Source: Deltaproteobacteria bacterium (lineage in GTDB: Bacteria; Desulfobacterota; Binatia; UTPRO1). From it: a stretch of DNA of 58,238 bases. The translations under genes and the position numbers were made by a program. Below the pieces are notes generated by a model, which saw only the letters and a list, made by a program, of their open reading frames with translations, made no database searches and was not told the origin of the DNA. Location of the stretch: assembly GCA_020848745.1 (NCBI GenBank), contig JADLHM010000134.1:1-58238 (forward strand), read 5' to 3'. Positions within the stretch are counted from its first letter, which is position 1. Each line of letters begins with the position of its first letter. Shown here piece by piece: positions 1,145 to 41,841 of this stretch.

Positions 1145-2416
1145 CTACACGACCGCGAGCGCGCGCTCGAGCTCGGCGAGCGTACCGCACGCGACGACCG
1201 CGTCGACGTGCCGCGCATAGGCCGCGACCACGCTGTCGCCGGTGTTCCAGCGCTCGCGCGGCTCGGGGTTCAGCCAGAGCGCGCGCCGGACGCGCGCCCG
1301 AGCGGCCGCCAGCAGGTCCGCCCGCGGCGGGCGGCGGTTGTTGCGCGCGTCCCCGAGGATCAGGAGCACGGTGTCCGCCCCGAGCGCGTCCGCTTCCCGC
1401 TCCGCGAGGTCGCGCAGCACCCGGCCGAAGTCGGAGCGGGCCATGAGGTCGATATGCGCCGCCGGGCGCACCTGTCCCTCCACGAACTCGATCTCGACCA
1501 GACGATCGACGAAACCGAAGAAGCGGACCCGGCGGAAGCACGGGGCCGCCGGGGCGAGGAGTGCGAGGAAGAAGTCGGTCGCGGTCGCCGCCGACGCCGA
1601 GAGATCGCAGAGCGCGACGAGGTCCGGCGCGCCGGGGCGCCGGCCGCGCCAGCGCCGATCGAACGGTACGCCGCCGCGCGGAACCGCGGCGCGGATGGTG
1701 CGTCGGAAGTCGAGGCGGCCCCGCGGGCGGGCCCGCAAGCGGCGCCGGAGGCGCGCCGTGATCCGCGCGGCGATCGTACGCGCGAGCTCGGCGCAGGCTT
1801 CCACGTCGGCGGCGCTCATCGCGCGGAACGGAAGGCGGAGGAGCCGGCGCTCGCGGTCGAGGCGGGCAAGCGTCGCGCCGCCGCCGGGCGCGGTCGAGGC
1901 GTCGTCCGCCGACGCGCGGCGCGCGGCGGCGGGAGCCGCGGATGCCGCAGCGGTCCGGTCGTCGCCCTCTCGTCGCGGCTCCGCGTCGCGCTCGCGCGGC
2001 TCCGCGTGCACGGACCGCGCGTCCTCCTCGCGACCTTCCGTTCCGCGCGCGCCGCGCGCCGGCCCCGAGCGAGGCTCCCGCTCCGCGGCCGGCCGCCGTT
2101 CGTCGCGCCGCCCGCCGCCCGCCGACGTCGGCGCCCCACCGCCCGTTCCTCCTCCCTCTCCCGCGCCGCGCGCGCGCCGCCGCCTCGCCGCCTCGGCGGC
2201 GGCGCCGCGCGCGGGGAAGACCGCCTCGAACGCGGCGACGTAGGTCGCGCGGTCGCGCTCGTCCTTCACGAGCGCCGCGGCGAGCGCTTCGCGGAGCGCC
2301 GTCCGGTCGACTCCCACCACCGCCGCCGCCCGCGCGGCATCCATGGCTTCTGCGATGCTGACGGCGACGCCGTCGCGGCGAAGAGCCGCCACGAGCGCCT
2401 CGATCCGCGTCCTCAT
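1145..2416 (-). CDS. VWA domain protein, CoxE-like
   Basis: The 423-residue protein has an N-terminal helical part, a long low-complexity Arg/Ala/Glu/Gly-rich middle (about residues 75-200) and a C-terminal von Willebrand A domain. The metal-site motif D-L-S-A-S lies in LVALCDLSASAATATD. CoxE-type VWA proteins act with MoxR-family AAA ATPases to mature or remodel metalloenzymes and other complexes. Here the MoxR gene lies just upstream on the same strand, with only a small plus-strand gene between them. The start MRTRIEALV at 2416 is chosen because upstream frame extensions are non-homologous in composition. The client protein is unknown. Confidence 0.8.
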   Translation of the reverse strand: MRTRIEALVAALRRDGVAVSIAEAMDAARAAAVVGVDRTALREALAAALVKDERDRATYVAAFEAVFPARGAAAEAARRRRARGAGEGGGTGGGAPTSAGGGRRDERRPAAEREPRSGPARGARGTEGREEDARSVHAEPRERDAEPRREGDDRTAAASAAPAAARRASADDASTAPGGGATLARLDRERRLLRLPFRAMSAADVEACAELARTIAARITARLRRRLRARPRGRLDFRRTIRAAVPRGGVPFDRRWRGRRPGAPDLVALCDLSASAATATDFFLALLAPAAPCFRRVRFFGFVDRLVEIEFVEGQVRPAAHIDLMARSDFGRVLRDLAEREADALGADTVLLILGDARNNRRPPRADLLAAARARVRRALWLNPEPRERWNTGDSVVAAYARHVDAVVACGTLAELERALAVV

Positions 2417-2533
2417 TTCTTGCGACGAGGCGGGCGCGCACCCGCGATCGTGCGCCGCTGCGGCACCCGCCTCCCAGAGAATTCGAGGATTTCCACCAAC
2501 CTGCGTGGCACCGGCGTTGCTCTCCCGAGGGAC

Positions 2534-2836
2534 GTGCACGGCAGCATCCAGCTCGCGATCCTCGTCGTCCTGAACCTGGCGCTCCAGCTCTTCGACGGCG
2601 TCGCCACGTACGTCGGCTGGCAGCAGCACGGCGAGATGAATCCGATCCTGCTCGCGGGATTCGGCCGCTTCGGAGCCGGTCCGACGCTCGTGGCGGCGAA
2701 GGCGCTCGCGATCGTGCTCGTGCTCGTGCTCGCCGCGACGCCACGCCGCCGGCTCGCCGTGTTCGGCCTCGCCCTCACGCTCACGGCGTACACGACGCTC
2801 TCGTTCGTGCCGTGGACGCAGCGCCTCTTCGGCTGA
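2534..2836 (+). CDS. Small membrane protein, DUF5658-like
   Basis: This 100-residue protein starts with GTG and has three hydrophobic segments: about residues 5-22, then about 42-65, then about 68-90. The motif FDGVATYVGWQQHGEMNPIL between the first two resembles DUF5658 family proteins, where an Asp/Thr near the end of helix 1 and an N-P pair precede helix 2. The function is unknown. The gene sits on the opposite strand between the MoxR and VWA genes and starts about 120 bp upstream of the VWA start. A GAGGGA stretch just before the GTG may serve as ribosome binding site, although the spacing is tight. Confidence 0.6.
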   Translation: MHGSIQLAILVVLNLALQLFDGVATYVGWQQHGEMNPILLAGFGRFGAGPTLVAAKALAIVLVLVLAATPRRRLAVFGLALTLTAYTTLSFVPWTQRLFG

Positions 2837-2842
2837 TCCGCC

Positions 2843-3721
2843 TCAACGTTTGGCCGGCGGCGTCCTGCCGAGGCCGGCGATCGCGGGCTCCGCCTTGCGG
2901 AAGTCCTCCTCGTGCTTCAACAACACGGCGAGCGTCCGCCGCACCGGCTCCGGCTCGAGCTCGCGGATGCCGAGCGCGAGGAGCGCACGCGCCCAGTCGA
3001 GCGTCTCGGCGATGCTCGGCGACTTCTTGAGCCCGAGCCTGCGGAGCTGCGCCACGAACTCCGCGACCCGCATCCGCAGCTGCGCGTCGAGCGCCGGCAC
3101 CTTGAGCGCGATGATCTCGCGCTCCTTCTCGACGCCGGGGAAGTCCAGATAGAGGTGCAGACAGCGCCGCTTGAGCGCCTCCGAGAGCTCGCGCCGCTGG
3201 TTCGACGTGAGGACCACCACCGGACGCTCGCGAGCGACGATCGTTCCGAGCTCCGGCACCGTCACCTGGGACTCGGCCAGCACCTCGAGGAGGAACGCCT
3301 CGAGCTCCTCGTCGGCCTTGTCGATCTCGTCGATCAGGAGCACCGTCCGTCGCGGCGCGCTGATGGCCTTGAGGAGCGGACGCTCGAGCAGGTACTCGCG
3401 CGAGAAGATGTGGTCCTTGAGCTCGTCCCAGCCCGCGTGCTCGCGGTCGGCCTGCAGCCGCATGAGCTGCTTCTGGTAGTTCCACTCGTAGAGCGCGTGC
3501 GAGGCGTCGAGGCCCTCGTAGCATTGCAGGCGGATGACCTCGGTCCCGAGCATCGCGGCGACGACCTTCGCGAGCTCGGTCTTGCCCGCGCCCGCGGGTC
3601 CTTCGACCAGGAGCGGCTTCTCGAGCACGAGCGCCAGGTACACGACGGTCTCGACCCGCGGCGTGGTGACGTAGCGGGCCGCCGTCATGCCCGCCCGCAC
3701 CGCCTCGGCCGTGATGTCCAT
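2843..3721 (-). CDS. MoxR-family AAA+ ATPase
   Basis: The 292-residue protein shows the AAA+ Walker A motif GPAGAGKTELAK (about residue 40), a Walker B LLIDEIDKAD and a sensor-1 TSNQRRELSEALKRRC, in the MoxR order. MoxR ATPases work with VWA proteins in complex maturation; the CoxE-like VWA gene lies downstream on the same strand. The start at 3721 (MDITAEAV) has AAAGG eight bases upstream. That same ribosome site and the first five codons are copied in the upstream 53-bp repeat, so ribosomes from the DUF1015 gene could reach this start through three small cistrons. Longer frame extensions upstream are repeat sequence rather than protein. Confidence 0.9.
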   Translation of the reverse strand: MDITAEAVRAGMTAARYVTTPRVETVVYLALVLEKPLLVEGPAGAGKTELAKVVAAMLGTEVIRLQCYEGLDASHALYEWNYQKQLMRLQADREHAGWDELKDHIFSREYLLERPLLKAISAPRRTVLLIDEIDKADEELEAFLLEVLAESQVTVPELGTIVARERPVVVLTSNQRRELSEALKRRCLHLYLDFPGVEKEREIIALKVPALDAQLRMRVAEFVAQLRRLGLKKSPSIAETLDWARALLALGIRELEPEPVRRTLAVLLKHEEDFRKAEPAIAGLGRTPPAKR

Positions 3722-3729
3722 GGTGCCTT

Positions 3730-3774
3730 TCAATCGTCGAGGCCGTAGACGGCAAGGACGGCCATGAGGTCCAT
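3730..3774 (-). CDS. Repeat-encoded 14-residue minicistron 3
   Basis: It encodes MDLMAVLAVYGLDD. The two changes (VY for FS) make this the most diverged copy. Its stop codon overlaps the ribosome binding site of the MoxR gene, whose ATG is eight bases further on. Confidence 0.35.
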   Translation of the reverse strand: MDLMAVLAVYGLDD

Positions 3775-3782
3775 GGTACCTT

Positions 3783-3827
3783 TCAATCGTCGAGGCCGGA
3801 GAAGGCAAGGACGGCCGTGATGTCCAT
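3783..3827 (-). CDS. Repeat-encoded 14-residue minicistron 2
   Basis: It encodes MDITAVLAFSGLDD, starting with the same five residues as the MoxR protein. It has its own AAAGG site overlapping the stop of minicistron 1. It is a repeat product and expression is unproven. Confidence 0.35.
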   Translation of the reverse strand: MDITAVLAFSGLDD

Positions 3828-3835
3828 GGTGCCTT

Positions 3836-3880
3836 TCAATCGTCGAGGCCGGAGAAGGCAAGGACGGCCATGAGGTCCAT
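3836..3880 (-). CDS. Repeat-encoded 14-residue minicistron 1
   Basis: It encodes MDLMAVLAFSGLDD. Its ATG lies eight bases after the DUF1015 stop codon, and the AAAGG ribosome site overlaps that stop, so translation could be coupled. There is no evidence that the peptide itself has a function; it may only relay ribosomes toward the MoxR gene. Confidence 0.35.
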   Translation of the reverse strand: MDLMAVLAFSGLDD

Positions 3881-3888
3881 GGTACCTT

Positions 3889-5196
3889 TCAATCGTCGAG
3901 GCAGTAGAAGACGAGCCCGGTCAGGAGCTTCGGGAAGAAGTAGGTCGACTTCTCGGGCATCGTGAGGCCGGCGAGACCGACCGCGCGGAGATCGCCGACG
4001 CTCGTCGCGGGAAGGAAGAACGCGGCGGCCGCCTCGCCGCGGTCGACGAGGCCGAGGGCGCGCCGCGCGTCCTGCGTGTACGTGAGGCCGGGCGCGCCGC
4101 CGCGCTCGCCGATCGGCAGCCGGAGGATGCCGGCGAGCACGATCTGGTGCAGCACGGTCACGTCGAGGACGCGCAGCGCGGGCGGCACCGTCGTCGCGAA
4201 CGGCAGCGCGTGCGTCGGCGCCGTGCAGAACCAGAGCTGCGTCGCGCCGCGCACCGCGACGCCGAGGTGCGCCCTGTCGCTGGTGCGGTCGCCAGCCGCC
4301 GCGTCGAGGCGGCGGAGCATGGCCGCGAGGCCGTCCTCGGACCACGGCAGCTCCTCCACCGTGAAATGCTCGGCGAGGGCGCCGCGCAGCGCCTCCGGCA
4401 CGAGCGGCAGCGTCGCCAGCACGCGATGGGTCGGGAAGATCACGAGCCCCGCGTTCTCCATGGTCGTGAGATAGCAGAGCACGTAGTCGTAGGGCGCCTC
4501 GCCGAGCGGCGGCGCGCCGGCGCCGGCGGCCGCGCGGCGCTCGTCACGGTAGCGGAGCGCCGTCTCGTAGCGATGGTGACCGTCGGCGATGAAGACCTCG
4601 TGCGGCGCGACGCGCGCCTCGATCTCGGCGATCACCCGCGGGTCGTCGAGACGCCACATGCGGTCGTGGGAGCCGTCTTTGCCGCGCACGTCGACGTCGG
4701 GCGGCCGGGTCGTCGGGACGAGCGCCGCGAGATCGAGCCCGGGCGCCGACACGAGCCCGAAGATCGGCGAGAGCGAGACGCCGGTCGCTTGCAGCAGCGC
4801 GAAGCGGTCGTCCTTGGCCTTCTGCAGCGTCCGCTCGTGCGGCCGCACCTTCCCGGACTCGAAGCTCTCGACCCGGAGCGCGCCGATCACGCCGACGCGG
4901 TCGCGCGTCGAGCCGTCGGGAAGCGGGAACTTCTGCGCGTAGAGATAGAGCGAAGGGTTCGCGTCGACAGCGACGGCGCCCTCCTCGCGCCAGGCGGCGA
5001 GGGTCGCCGCGGCGCCGCCGTAGGGATCCGGATCGCGACAGAGGTCGATGCGCACGACGTTGTAGTCGCTCTGCGCGTACAGGCGATCGCGCTGCGCGCC
5101 GTCAATGACGTCGTACGGAGGCGCAGTGACGGCCGCGGGATCGCCGACGACGCCGGCGTCGTAGCGCAGTCCTGGAAACGATCGAAAAGTAGCCAC
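3889..5196 (-). CDS. DUF1015 family protein
   Basis: The 435-residue protein matches the DUF1015 family over its full length. Visible marks are the N-terminal PPYDVID, the central KVRPHERTLQKAKDDR segment, and IADGHHRYETALRYRDE, which looks like a catalytic or metal site. The family is widespread, sometimes found near serine or one-carbon metabolism genes, and has no settled function. It is 10 bp downstream of the TsaC/Sua5 gene, so VTT, TsaC-like, DUF1015 and MoxR probably form one transcription unit. The C-terminal CLDD is echoed in the GLDD ends of the repeat-encoded minicistrons that follow. Confidence 0.85.
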   Translation of the reverse strand: MATFRSFPGLRYDAGVVGDPAAVTAPPYDVIDGAQRDRLYAQSDYNVVRIDLCRDPDPYGGAAATLAAWREEGAVAVDANPSLYLYAQKFPLPDGSTRDRVGVIGALRVESFESGKVRPHERTLQKAKDDRFALLQATGVSLSPIFGLVSAPGLDLAALVPTTRPPDVDVRGKDGSHDRMWRLDDPRVIAEIEARVAPHEVFIADGHHRYETALRYRDERRAAAGAGAPPLGEAPYDYVLCYLTTMENAGLVIFPTHRVLATLPLVPEALRGALAEHFTVEELPWSEDGLAAMLRRLDAAAGDRTSDRAHLGVAVRGATQLWFCTAPTHALPFATTVPPALRVLDVTVLHQIVLAGILRLPIGERGGAPGLTYTQDARRALGLVDRGEAAAAFFLPATSVGDLRAVGLAGLTMPEKSTYFFPKLLTGLVFYCLDD

Positions 5197-5206
5197 GGGA
5201 TCTTCC

Positions 5207-5824
5207 TTAGACGTTCGAGAGTGGCGTCGTTCCGAGCACGCCTCGGAGCGCGTCGATCGGCGTCGCGCCGCGACGGATGACCCGCGCCGCGTCGCCGACG
5301 ACGAGTAGCACGGTGGACCCGAGGCCGCCAGCGAGACGGCCGCCGTCCACGTACGCGACGGCGTCGCCGAAGTACCCCCGCGCCTCCGCGACGTCGAGCG
5401 CCGGCCCCGCGCCGCCCGGATTGGCGCTCGTCGCCGTGAGCGGCTCGCCGAGCGCCGTCACCAGCGCCCGCGCGATCGGATGGCTCGACACGCGGACGCC
5501 GATCATGCCGGTCCCGCCGGTGAGCGCGGGCGGCAGATCGGCGTGCGCGGGCATCACGAGCGTGAGGGGTCCGGGCCAGAACGCGTCGACGAGACGGCGC
5601 GCCGGCGCCGGAACGTGCGCCACGACGCGGCCGAGCATCCCCGCGTCGGCGACGACGAGCGCGATCGGCTTCCCCGCATCGCGGCCTTTGAGCCGCGCGA
5701 TCCCGGCGACCGCCTCGTAGGAAAGGGCGCGCGCGCCGAGCCCGTAGAACGTCTCGGTCGGGTATACGACCGCGCCGCCGCGGCGGAGCATCGCGAGCGC
5801 CGCGTCGATCTCGCGCGCCGCCAT
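5207..5824 (-). CDS. TsaC/Sua5/YrdC family threonylcarbamoyl-AMP synthase
   Basis: The 205-residue protein carries the YrdC fold signatures: YPTETFYGLG near residue 21, KGRDAGKPIALVV near 46, and TATSANPGG near 131. The family makes threonylcarbamoyl-AMP from threonine, bicarbonate and ATP for the t6A modification of tRNAs that read ANN codons. Its length fits the short TsaC/YrdC/YciO type without the Sua5 C-terminal domain. The start ATG overlaps the stop of the upstream VTT gene by one base, which fixes the start and implies coupled translation. Longer upstream frames are shadows of the VTT gene. A non-tRNA YciO-type role cannot be excluded. Confidence 0.88.
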   Translation of the reverse strand: MAAREIDAALAMLRRGGAVVYPTETFYGLGARALSYEAVAGIARLKGRDAGKPIALVVADAGMLGRVVAHVPAPARRLVDAFWPGPLTLVMPAHADLPPALTGGTGMIGVRVSSHPIARALVTALGEPLTATSANPGGAGPALDVAEARGYFGDAVAYVDGGRLAGGLGSTVLLVVGDAARVIRRGATPIDALRGVLGTTPLSNV

Positions 5825-39783: not shown

Positions 39784-41841
39784 ATGCGGCGCTCATCATC
39801 GACGCCCTGGAAGCTCTGCACCCGCGTCGCCGCGACTGCCGTCGCGGTCACCTGCGCCGCCATCCTTCACGGCGCCGGCTCCTGGGAGGCCGCCAGAGCC
39901 CAGAGCGGTCCAGGGCTCGATCACTTCACCTGCTACCAGGCGAAGCCGTCGAAGGGGTTCCCGAACTTCGCACCGCTCGGGGGCTTGCCGCTCGTCGACG
40001 GGCTCGGCGGCGCGCTCGTCGACGTCAAGAAGCCGCGCGCGCTCTGCAACCCCAGCAACGTGAACGGCCAGGATCCGAGCGCCCCCACCCACGACGAGCA
40101 CCTCGCGAGCTACCAGATCAAGCGCTCCGCAGGGCAGCCGAAGTTCGCCAGGCTCAGGAATCAGACCGTGGTGGACGCGTTCGGCACGCTGACCCTCGAC
40201 GTCAAGAAGCCGGTGCGTCTCATGGTCCCGAGCGCGAAAATGGTCCTCGCGCCACCCCCGCCGCTGGCGGCGCCGGTTACCGATCACTTCACGTGCTACG
40301 CGGTGAGCATCAGCCGCGGCGCGCCGAAGTTCACGCCGATCCAGAACATCCAGGCGATCGACCAGTTCGGAAACCTCACCGTGGGCGCGAAGAAGCCGAC
40401 GGCGCTCTGTCTCGCAACCGACAAGAACGGCGAGGAACCGGGCGCCGAGACCCACCCCGACCACCTCATGTGCTACCAGATCAGGCGCGGCTCTTCCTTC
40501 ACGCCGGTCCTCCAAACCTACGTCGACAACCAGTTCGGCCTCGAGACACTCGACGTGACGAAGCCGGCCGAGCTCTGCGTGCCCGCGCTCCTGAACCCGG
40601 TCCCGACGCCGACGCCGACGCCGAGCGCGACGCCCGATCCGACCAGCACCGCGACCGCGACGACGACCCCGACGGCGACGTTCACCGCCACGCCAACCGC
40701 GACCGCGACCCCGACCGCAACGTCCACCGCCACGCCGACCGTAACCGCGACCCCGACCGGCACGACCCCGACCCCGACGCTGAGCGCGACCCCGACGCCG
40801 ACGCTGAGCGCGACCCCGACGCCGACCGTCACCGCGACCGCAACCGCGACGCCGACCGCGACGGAAACGCCGACGCCCACCGCGACCGCGACGGCGACGG
40901 CGACGGCGACGATCACGGCGACCCCGACCGCCACCCTCACGCCGACTCCCACGCCCACGCCGCTCAGCCGCACGTGCACGATCGGCGGTCCATCGAGCCT
41001 CGTCGGACTGCAGTTCAAGGGCGTCCCGCTCTTCGGCAACCTGCGCCTCACCGGCGCCCTGACCGGCTCGCAGACGATGCAGCTCCAGTCGGCGGACGGC
41101 AACGGCGTCCGCCAGATCACCGTCCCGGCGAGTTCCATCGTGTTCAACCCGATCGTGATCACTCCGCCGATCGGGTCCCCGATCCGCCTCTGCGTCTCGC
41201 CGACCGGGCCCGACGGCGCGGGCACGATCGACTGCGACGGCGGCGAGCCGAACGTCAACATCACGGCGCGGCAAGACCACAACACGAACAACGCGCCCGG
41301 CGGCAACGGCGGTCTGCCGCAGGATCCCGAGTGCGACGACACGCGCACGGCCCCGGACGGCAGCGTGTCCGCGGCGTGCCTGGAGTCCTCGGTCACCGGC
41401 TGCAACAGCAGCGATCCGCACATGGGCGTCTGCAACAGCCCGGTCGAGCACATCGAGAGCGGCACCTTCGCGAGCGGCAGCTTGCGGGTGGTCGAGTACC
41501 TGCGTCTGCGCCAGGTGAGCAACGTCGGCGGGGACGGCGTGCAGTGCACCGGCGACGACACCTACGCCGCGACGACCGACCTCACCGTCTTCCTCACGAC
41601 CGGCGCGGCGCGCGGCACGATTTACGACGCCAAGAACTCCGCCAACAGCCTCCTCGACCACCAAGCAACCGGGTGCACGAACTGCACGACGCAAGTCACC
41701 GGAGCCCCGCGCGCCTGCAGCGCGATCGACGGTCCGAGCGGCAGCCTGACAGGTTTGAAGATCGGTGCCGGCTTCCCCGCCCTCGACCTCGATGCGACCG
41801 CCGGCGACGGCGCGGTGACCATCGAGGTGACCTGCCAGTAA
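39784..41841 (+). CDS. Large secreted protein: repeated DHFTCY modules, Thr/Pro linker, C-terminal domain
   Basis: The 685-residue protein has a signal peptide (VAATAVAVTCAAILHGAGSWEAARAQ). The N-terminal half holds four related units of about 75 residues. Each has a start like LDHFTCYQAKPSKG, a middle such as LVDGLGGALVDVKKP and an end such as ALCNPSN. The pattern is recurrent in Binatota-type secreted proteins (DUF7450-like, by my reading). Residues about 275-398 are a Thr/Pro/Ala repeat, probably an extended linker. The last 285 residues contain several Cys and a GLQFKGVPLFGNLRLTGAL start; I do not recognise this domain. AGGAGG-like ACCGGAGG precedes the ATG. The location is probably the cell surface or outside the cell. 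Confidence 0.78.
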   Translation: MRRSSSTPWKLCTRVAATAVAVTCAAILHGAGSWEAARAQSGPGLDHFTCYQAKPSKGFPNFAPLGGLPLVDGLGGALVDVKKPRALCNPSNVNGQDPSAPTHDEHLASYQIKRSAGQPKFARLRNQTVVDAFGTLTLDVKKPVRLMVPSAKMVLAPPPPLAAPVTDHFTCYAVSISRGAPKFTPIQNIQAIDQFGNLTVGAKKPTALCLATDKNGEEPGAETHPDHLMCYQIRRGSSFTPVLQTYVDNQFGLETLDVTKPAELCVPALLNPVPTPTPTPSATPDPTSTATATTTPTATFTATPTATATPTATSTATPTVTATPTGTTPTPTLSATPTPTLSATPTPTVTATATATPTATETPTPTATATATATATITATPTATLTPTPTPTPLSRTCTIGGPSSLVGLQFKGVPLFGNLRLTGALTGSQTMQLQSADGNGVRQITVPASSIVFNPIVITPPIGSPIRLCVSPTGPDGAGTIDCDGGEPNVNITARQDHNTNNAPGGNGGLPQDPECDDTRTAPDGSVSAACLESSVTGCNSSDPHMGVCNSPVEHIESGTFASGSLRVVEYLRLRQVSNVGGDGVQCTGDDTYAATTDLTVFLTTGAARGTIYDAKNSANSLLDHQATGCTNCTTQVTGAPRACSAIDGPSGSLTGLKIGAGFPALDLDATAGDGAVTIEVTCQ
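40603..40966 (+). repeat. Low-complexity Thr/Pro/Ala-coding repeat within the secreted protein
   Basis: Short units such as CCGACGCCG and ACCGCGACC recur for about 360 bp. A longer repeat CTGAGCGCGACCCCGACG occurs twice close together. All stay in frame and code for (TP)n, TAT and TPT. Such tracts gain and lose units by slippage. Confidence 0.85.

Follow-up and report, generated by a model that had tools for sequence, protein, structure and literature searches.

The closest precedent for the tandem array described here is the mycobacterial MIRU. MIRUs are reported at 41 loci in H37Rv (PMC2734929), and the MIRU array of senX3-regX3 in M. tuberculosis is described as being composed of 77-bp and 53-bp units (PMC4213456). 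A second mycobacterial example is VNTR3239, which lies between rnc and fpg1 in the M. tuberculosis complex, where the gap between the two genes is given as 1-20 bp in most relatives versus 358 bp when tandem repeats are present (PMC2734929). Translational coupling between neighbouring genes is summarized in a review as efficient at stop-to-start spacings of -4 to +3 and as 3- to 10-fold lower towards +40, and a later study covered by the same review observed little coupling beyond 30 nt (PMC12548453).

The window, which is the whole 58,238-nucleotide stretch of DNA that was analysed, carries a DUF1015 gene and a gene for a MoxR-type ATPase that are separated by three additional copies of a 53-bp unit, all on the minus strand. 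Of the two genes, the upstream one (3889..5196, minus strand) encodes a DUF1015 protein of 435 aa (PF06245, E 4.2e-74), and the downstream gene (2843..3721, minus strand) encodes a moxR-type AAA ATPase of 292 aa (PF07728, AAA_5, E 8.1e-14), for which the top NCBIfam match is MadB_ATPase at 292 bits, under the cut-off of 475. An N-terminal extension of MoxR from a TTG at 3808 was considered and rejected: although the frame is open, the homologous ATG is the start in congeners. On the far side of moxR, an ORF for a DUF5658 membrane protein (2534-2836, plus strand; PF18902, E 1.6e-6, above the cut-off) is convergent with moxR, and 6 nt separate its end from the moxR stop. Because this ORF runs against moxR, moxR is apparently the last gene of its unit. 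A VWA_CoxE ORF (1145-2629, minus strand) lies beyond the DUF5658 ORF and overlaps it.

Tandem Repeats Finder places the array at 3706-3910 on the minus strand, with a period of 53, 3.9 copies, 91% matches, no indels and a score of 340, which confirms the tandem junction repeat with three minicistrons that a preliminary description of this DNA had placed at 3711-3903. The two tandem scores of the array, 340 and 382, compare with a maximum of 72 among 40 block-shuffled windows. All three units have the content that had been claimed for every copy, namely a TGA, AAAGG, an ATG, 14 codons and a closing TGA; the first A of AAAGG is the last base of the TGA, and the site lies 4 nt before the ATG.

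The stop-to-start spacing is +8 at all four junctions, and the DUF1015 stop is separated from the moxR start by 167 nt, which equals 3x53+8. At junction 1 (3878..3891, minus strand, as for all the parts that follow), the DUF1015 TGA is joined through AAGGTACC to an ATG at 3880, the start of minicistron 1 (3836..3880), which is of variant A and runs through 14 codons (MDLMAVLAFSGLDD) to a TGA that ends at 3836. At junction 2 (3825..3838), this TGA is joined through AAGGCACC to an ATG at 3827, the start of minicistron 2 (3783..3827), which is of variant B (MDITAVLAFSGLDD) and has a TGA that ends at 3783. Junction 3 (3772..3785) again carries AAGGTACC and connects the TGA of minicistron 2 to an ATG at 3774, where minicistron 3 (3730..3774) begins; it combines a variant A start with a different spacer (MDLMAVLAVYGLDD), and its TGA ends at 3730. 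Junction 4 (3719..3732) carries AAGGCACC between this last TGA and the moxR ATG at 3721.

The repeat unit is the operon junction itself, copied, and comprises the DUF1015 tail, the gap and the moxR start. This follows from the edges of the unit, which match both flanking genes and support the earlier proposal that the left edge copies the end of DUF1015 and the right edge the start of moxR. The source of the left part is the last ~30 nt of DUF1015, and that of the right part is the first ~16 nt of moxR. On the right, unit 2 (variant B) is identical to the moxR start over 16 nt from the ATG, and units 1 and 3 are identical to it for 6 nt from the ATG, with 2 mismatches within 16 nt. On the left, every unit ends as DUF1015 does over CCTCGACGATTGA, and in the 18 nt before CCTCGACGATTGA the units match the DUF1015 tail at 12 of 18 positions, a level equalled in only 2-3 of 2031 control windows taken from both genes.

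Duplication was modelled at this junction for all lengths from 30 to 119 nt, with three positions of the right-hand breakpoint. For lengths of 2 (mod 3), the new start runs in frame to the copied stop in all 90 modelled duplications; for the other lengths, it does so in none of 180. Since 53 is 2 (mod 3) and the gap is 8 nt, the copied moxR start is in frame with the copied DUF1015 stop, and such closure of the frame is a 1-in-3 chance in a single duplication event. The preliminary description had argued from the length of the repeat, not a multiple of three, that each copy depends on stop and restart. It remains true that ribosomes from DUF1015, if they are to reach moxR, would do so only by stop and restart, but the length is not independent evidence for this, because a length of 2 (mod 3) is what makes the minicistron itself.

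Six genomes of the order to which the genome belongs, all of one family, were compared, and all six possess DUF1015. The DUF1015-moxR pair is present in five genomes; the array is present in one of the five, and the other four have a plain single junction. The gap between the two genes is 167 nt in the array's own genome, 12 and 14 nt in the congeners G002 and G001, respectively, and 1 nt in each of the sister-genus genomes G003 and G004. In the class as a whole, 142 of 148 genomes have a DUF1015 match, and a survey of the gap was performed on 111 loci, for which only the best-scoring DUF1015 matches of the class were taken. The DUF1015 C-terminus is present at 35 of the 111 loci, which include some duplicated places and correspond to about 30 distinct genomes. 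Among these genomes, moxR lies directly after DUF1015 in five, a number to be read with short locus flanks that could hide a more distant moxR; among the 35 loci with the C-terminus, a tandem repeat at the DUF1015 stop is found in the array's own genome only. The regions upstream of moxR were viewed at 35 of 80 loci, and a DUF1015 tail is present in the first three only. In genome G003, DUF1015 contains a 24-bp repeat (1.9 copies) some 80-125 nt upstream of its stop; the gene is also split there into two pieces that overlap, and the match of one of them includes a TGA, which points to a frameshift or an assembly error. Among the genomes compared, an array of this anatomy, originating from the edges of two genes, is restricted to its own genome.

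The copies differ at five sites in total. Three of these (one in the gap, one at codon 3 and one at codon 4) follow the order A, B, A, B. The B form is that of moxR and, for the two codon sites, that of the congeners as well. At the two remaining sites, in the spacer, unit 1 is the same as unit 2 and different from unit 3. The alternation agrees with the earlier suggestion that the unit duplicated as a pair, but the spacer sites group units 1 and 2 against unit 3. On the pattern of these sites, simple pair duplication is insufficient, and conversion between copies or further steps would be needed. Over its final 15 nt (3889-3903, minus strand), DUF1015 differs from the congener G002 at 5 positions. 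Of 1294 windows of this gene, 21 show at least as much divergence, and this divergence of the tail suggests conversion or exchange with the repeat units. All four coding differences among the minicistrons lie at codon positions 1 or 2 and so give no sign of peptide conservation; in the congener comparison, codon position 3 accounts for 82 of 129 differences in DUF1015 and 29 of 51 in moxR. The minicistron peptides themselves are probably unused. The lack of damaged units is weak evidence, given that only five sites vary.

The best explanation for the array is that a tight operon junction was duplicated in tandem specifically in this lineage, and that the duplication is tolerated because moxR stays coupled through the relay, a reading to which we give a probability of roughly two in three. 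The copied segment would have begun ~30 nt upstream of the DUF1015 stop, spanned the 8-nt gap and ended ~16 nt into moxR, and each copy would have placed a moxR start ahead of a DUF1015 stop in the same frame, giving a closed 14-codon minicistron. Ribosomes finishing DUF1015 would re-initiate at the ATG 8 nt further on, translate its 14 codons and terminate, do the same at the second and third minicistrons, and then begin moxR, with some ribosomes perhaps being lost at each step of the relay. The relay would hold the spacing at +8 per step despite the 167 nt that now separate moxR from the DUF1015 stop. By the published limits on spacing, moxR should be uncoupled by a 167-nt gap that is left untranslated, whereas a relay at +8 need not uncouple it. 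From this arrangement we infer cotranscription of the two genes, their coupling and the near-neutrality of the array.

If the array were instead a selected translational rheostat, the copy number would set the level of MoxR, with each stop and restart passing a fraction of the ribosomes and unequal recombination altering the number of copies. The stop, the SD-like site, the start and the length are intact in all units, as this would have it, but there is no signal of selection past these intact frames, which are common by descent, and no variation in copy number is seen in the one assembly of the species. The SD duplex energies, calculated against an anti-SD sequence, are -4.0 kcal/mol for variant A and -3.2 kcal/mol for variant B, compared with a median of -3.9 for the 545 minus-strand ATGs of the window. 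The idea of strong ribosome binding sites was thus rejected, AAAGG being average for the window. Folding of the array is also average, with a z of -0.36 against shuffles, and the single junctions have z values of -0.53, 0.73, -1.12 and 1.49; a structured RNA element was rejected, as the array and the junctions fold like shuffles. The predicted structure after the stop does differ between the variants, at -14.7 and -16.6 kcal/mol for the A junctions and -11.6 and -11.6 kcal/mol for the B junctions, and work on a synthetic operon in E. coli has been reported to show that structure just after a stop lowers re-initiation (PMC7518266). Longer repeats at rnc-fpg1 in M. tuberculosis are also reported to have gone with more fpg1 mRNA (PMC2734929); that effect, however, was on mRNA and towards more, not less. 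Tuning of MoxR by copy number, which the preliminary description had raised, is not supported, given the average SD, the ordinary RNA structure and the peptide differences at codon positions 1 and 2, and selection for such a rheostat is unlikely.

Variant A possesses GGTACCATGG and a predicted five-pair hairpin, CCATG-GACCT-CATGG, over the start codon, both of which are absent from variant B. With its ATG in this hairpin, variant A is predicted to be the more stable after the stop, a difference that may be functional, and on this folding prediction the hairpin could hinder restart. It is conceivable, though quite unlikely, that the array is a gene-junction VNTR that acts as a digital attenuator, in which the output of MoxR would be multiplied, for every unit added, by a constant passing efficiency and variants A and B would differ in this efficiency via the start-codon hairpin. 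Recombination between copies would then set the MoxR:DUF1015 stoichiometry in steps.

Coupling would be irrelevant if the array held a promoter or a processing site that gave moxR its own transcript. The senX3-regX3 MIRU array of M. tuberculosis is described as having promoter activity (PMC4213456), but the unit here consists of coding sequence from the ends of two genes, and a scan of 3500-5400 found no sigma-70-like promoter, with 0.2 expected, although such a scan carries little weight in an uncultured lineage with GC-rich DNA; a separate transcript of this kind is very unlikely. The genome is a draft of 155 contigs, in which an assembler might have made or miscounted the copies. Artefactual copies are expected to be identical, however, and these copies differ at five sites. 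The longest exact repeat within the array is 46 bp, and therefore ordinary reads could resolve it. An assembly artefact is accordingly very improbable.

A search of the 216-base array against its own 4.88-Mb, 155-contig genome gave no second strong match. The next-best match is weak (33 bp, 85%, E 0.003, at C10:3773-3805), and an exact 14-nt string taken from the unit is absent from its locus. The exact unit pattern occurs at three places in the 148 genomes of the class, all of which are the array's own units. With up to 3 mismatches allowed, the pattern is found in 20 of the 148 genomes; the other 21 places all have 3 mismatches and are scattered, compared with 8 for the reversed control, and by these counts look like background. 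A plasmid search returned only two weak matches of 32-34 nt, and a search for the unit as a mobile repeat in the six genomes of the order gave none that supports mobility. A MIRU-type mobile repeat inserted at the moxR start codon would share this architecture, in which tandem units carry an ORF positioned for coupling to the gene that follows (PMC12548453), but this origin is extremely unlikely given that there is no second copy in the genome, that no full match occurs elsewhere in the 148 class genomes, and that both halves of the unit match the flanking genes.

That the genome is prone to such repeats was rejected for a sample of 339,220 bases, which consisted of the window and stretches of 20 of the 155 contigs. 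Eight Tandem Repeats Finder rows score at least 80 in this sample, and only the rows of period 53 and 106 have a period that is indivisible by three. On another contig of the same genome (L100, 2594-3143), a repeat with a period of 159 (3 x 53) is present in 3.5 copies; this is perhaps a protein repeat, with the 3 x 53 being a coincidence of number. A long degenerate repeat at 40603-40962 of the window has periods of 6, 24 and 42, all multiples of three, and is perhaps a repetitive coding linker.

The remaining alternative, that the 14-residue peptides act as a leader peptide or metabolite sensor, would fit three near-identical peptides with intact frames but is hardly credible when all their coding differences fall at codon positions 1 and 2 and the units are absent from congeners.

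By itself, the array is a curiosity of one uncultured lineage. As a duplication probably tolerated through its relay, it shows in a single step how a tandem duplication within an operon can become harmless, or can turn into a regulator, if the stop and the start that are copied share a frame. It is also a natural test of the number of successive reinitiations that a bacterial ribosome can make, a question for which synthetic operons are the usual system. In the literature searched, which was mostly without subscription papers, no title or abstract opening that was listed describes a junction duplication of local origin with relay ORFs.

The array resembles the coupled pairs trpE-trpD and galT-galK, as described in a review (PMC12548453), in its short stop-start spacing and its restart after termination, and differs from them in that a series of four junctions, one after another, links the two genes. 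Its likeness to VNTR3239 at rnc-fpg1 lies in a junction that is short in relatives and lengthened by tandem repeats in one lineage (PMC2734929). VNTR3239, however, is described as consisting of exact direct repeats, with an effect measured on mRNA (PMC2734929), whereas the copies of the array have diverged and contain relay ORFs. The likeness to MIRUs is closer, as these are described as short tandem units at an operon junction, each with a short ORF that is proposed to be coupled to the next gene (PMC12548453, PMC4213456). MIRU units are 40-100 bp in length and are found in tandem in operon junctions, as are those of the array (53 bp, 3.9 copies), and the three closed 14-codon ORFs of the array are, like the MIRU ORF, placed for a putative coupling to the next gene. 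The 53-bp length common to the array and to the senX3-regX3 form is taken as a coincidence. MIRUs, however, are dispersed over many loci, are seen as mobile and couple through a -4 nt overlap of start and stop at the insertion site, whereas the array lies at a single place in its own genome, is built from its two flanking genes and has a spacing of +8 at all four junctions. Compared by these described features, the array, which is confined to a single locus, locally derived and spaced at +8 rather than -4, is not a MIRU, but it may work like one.
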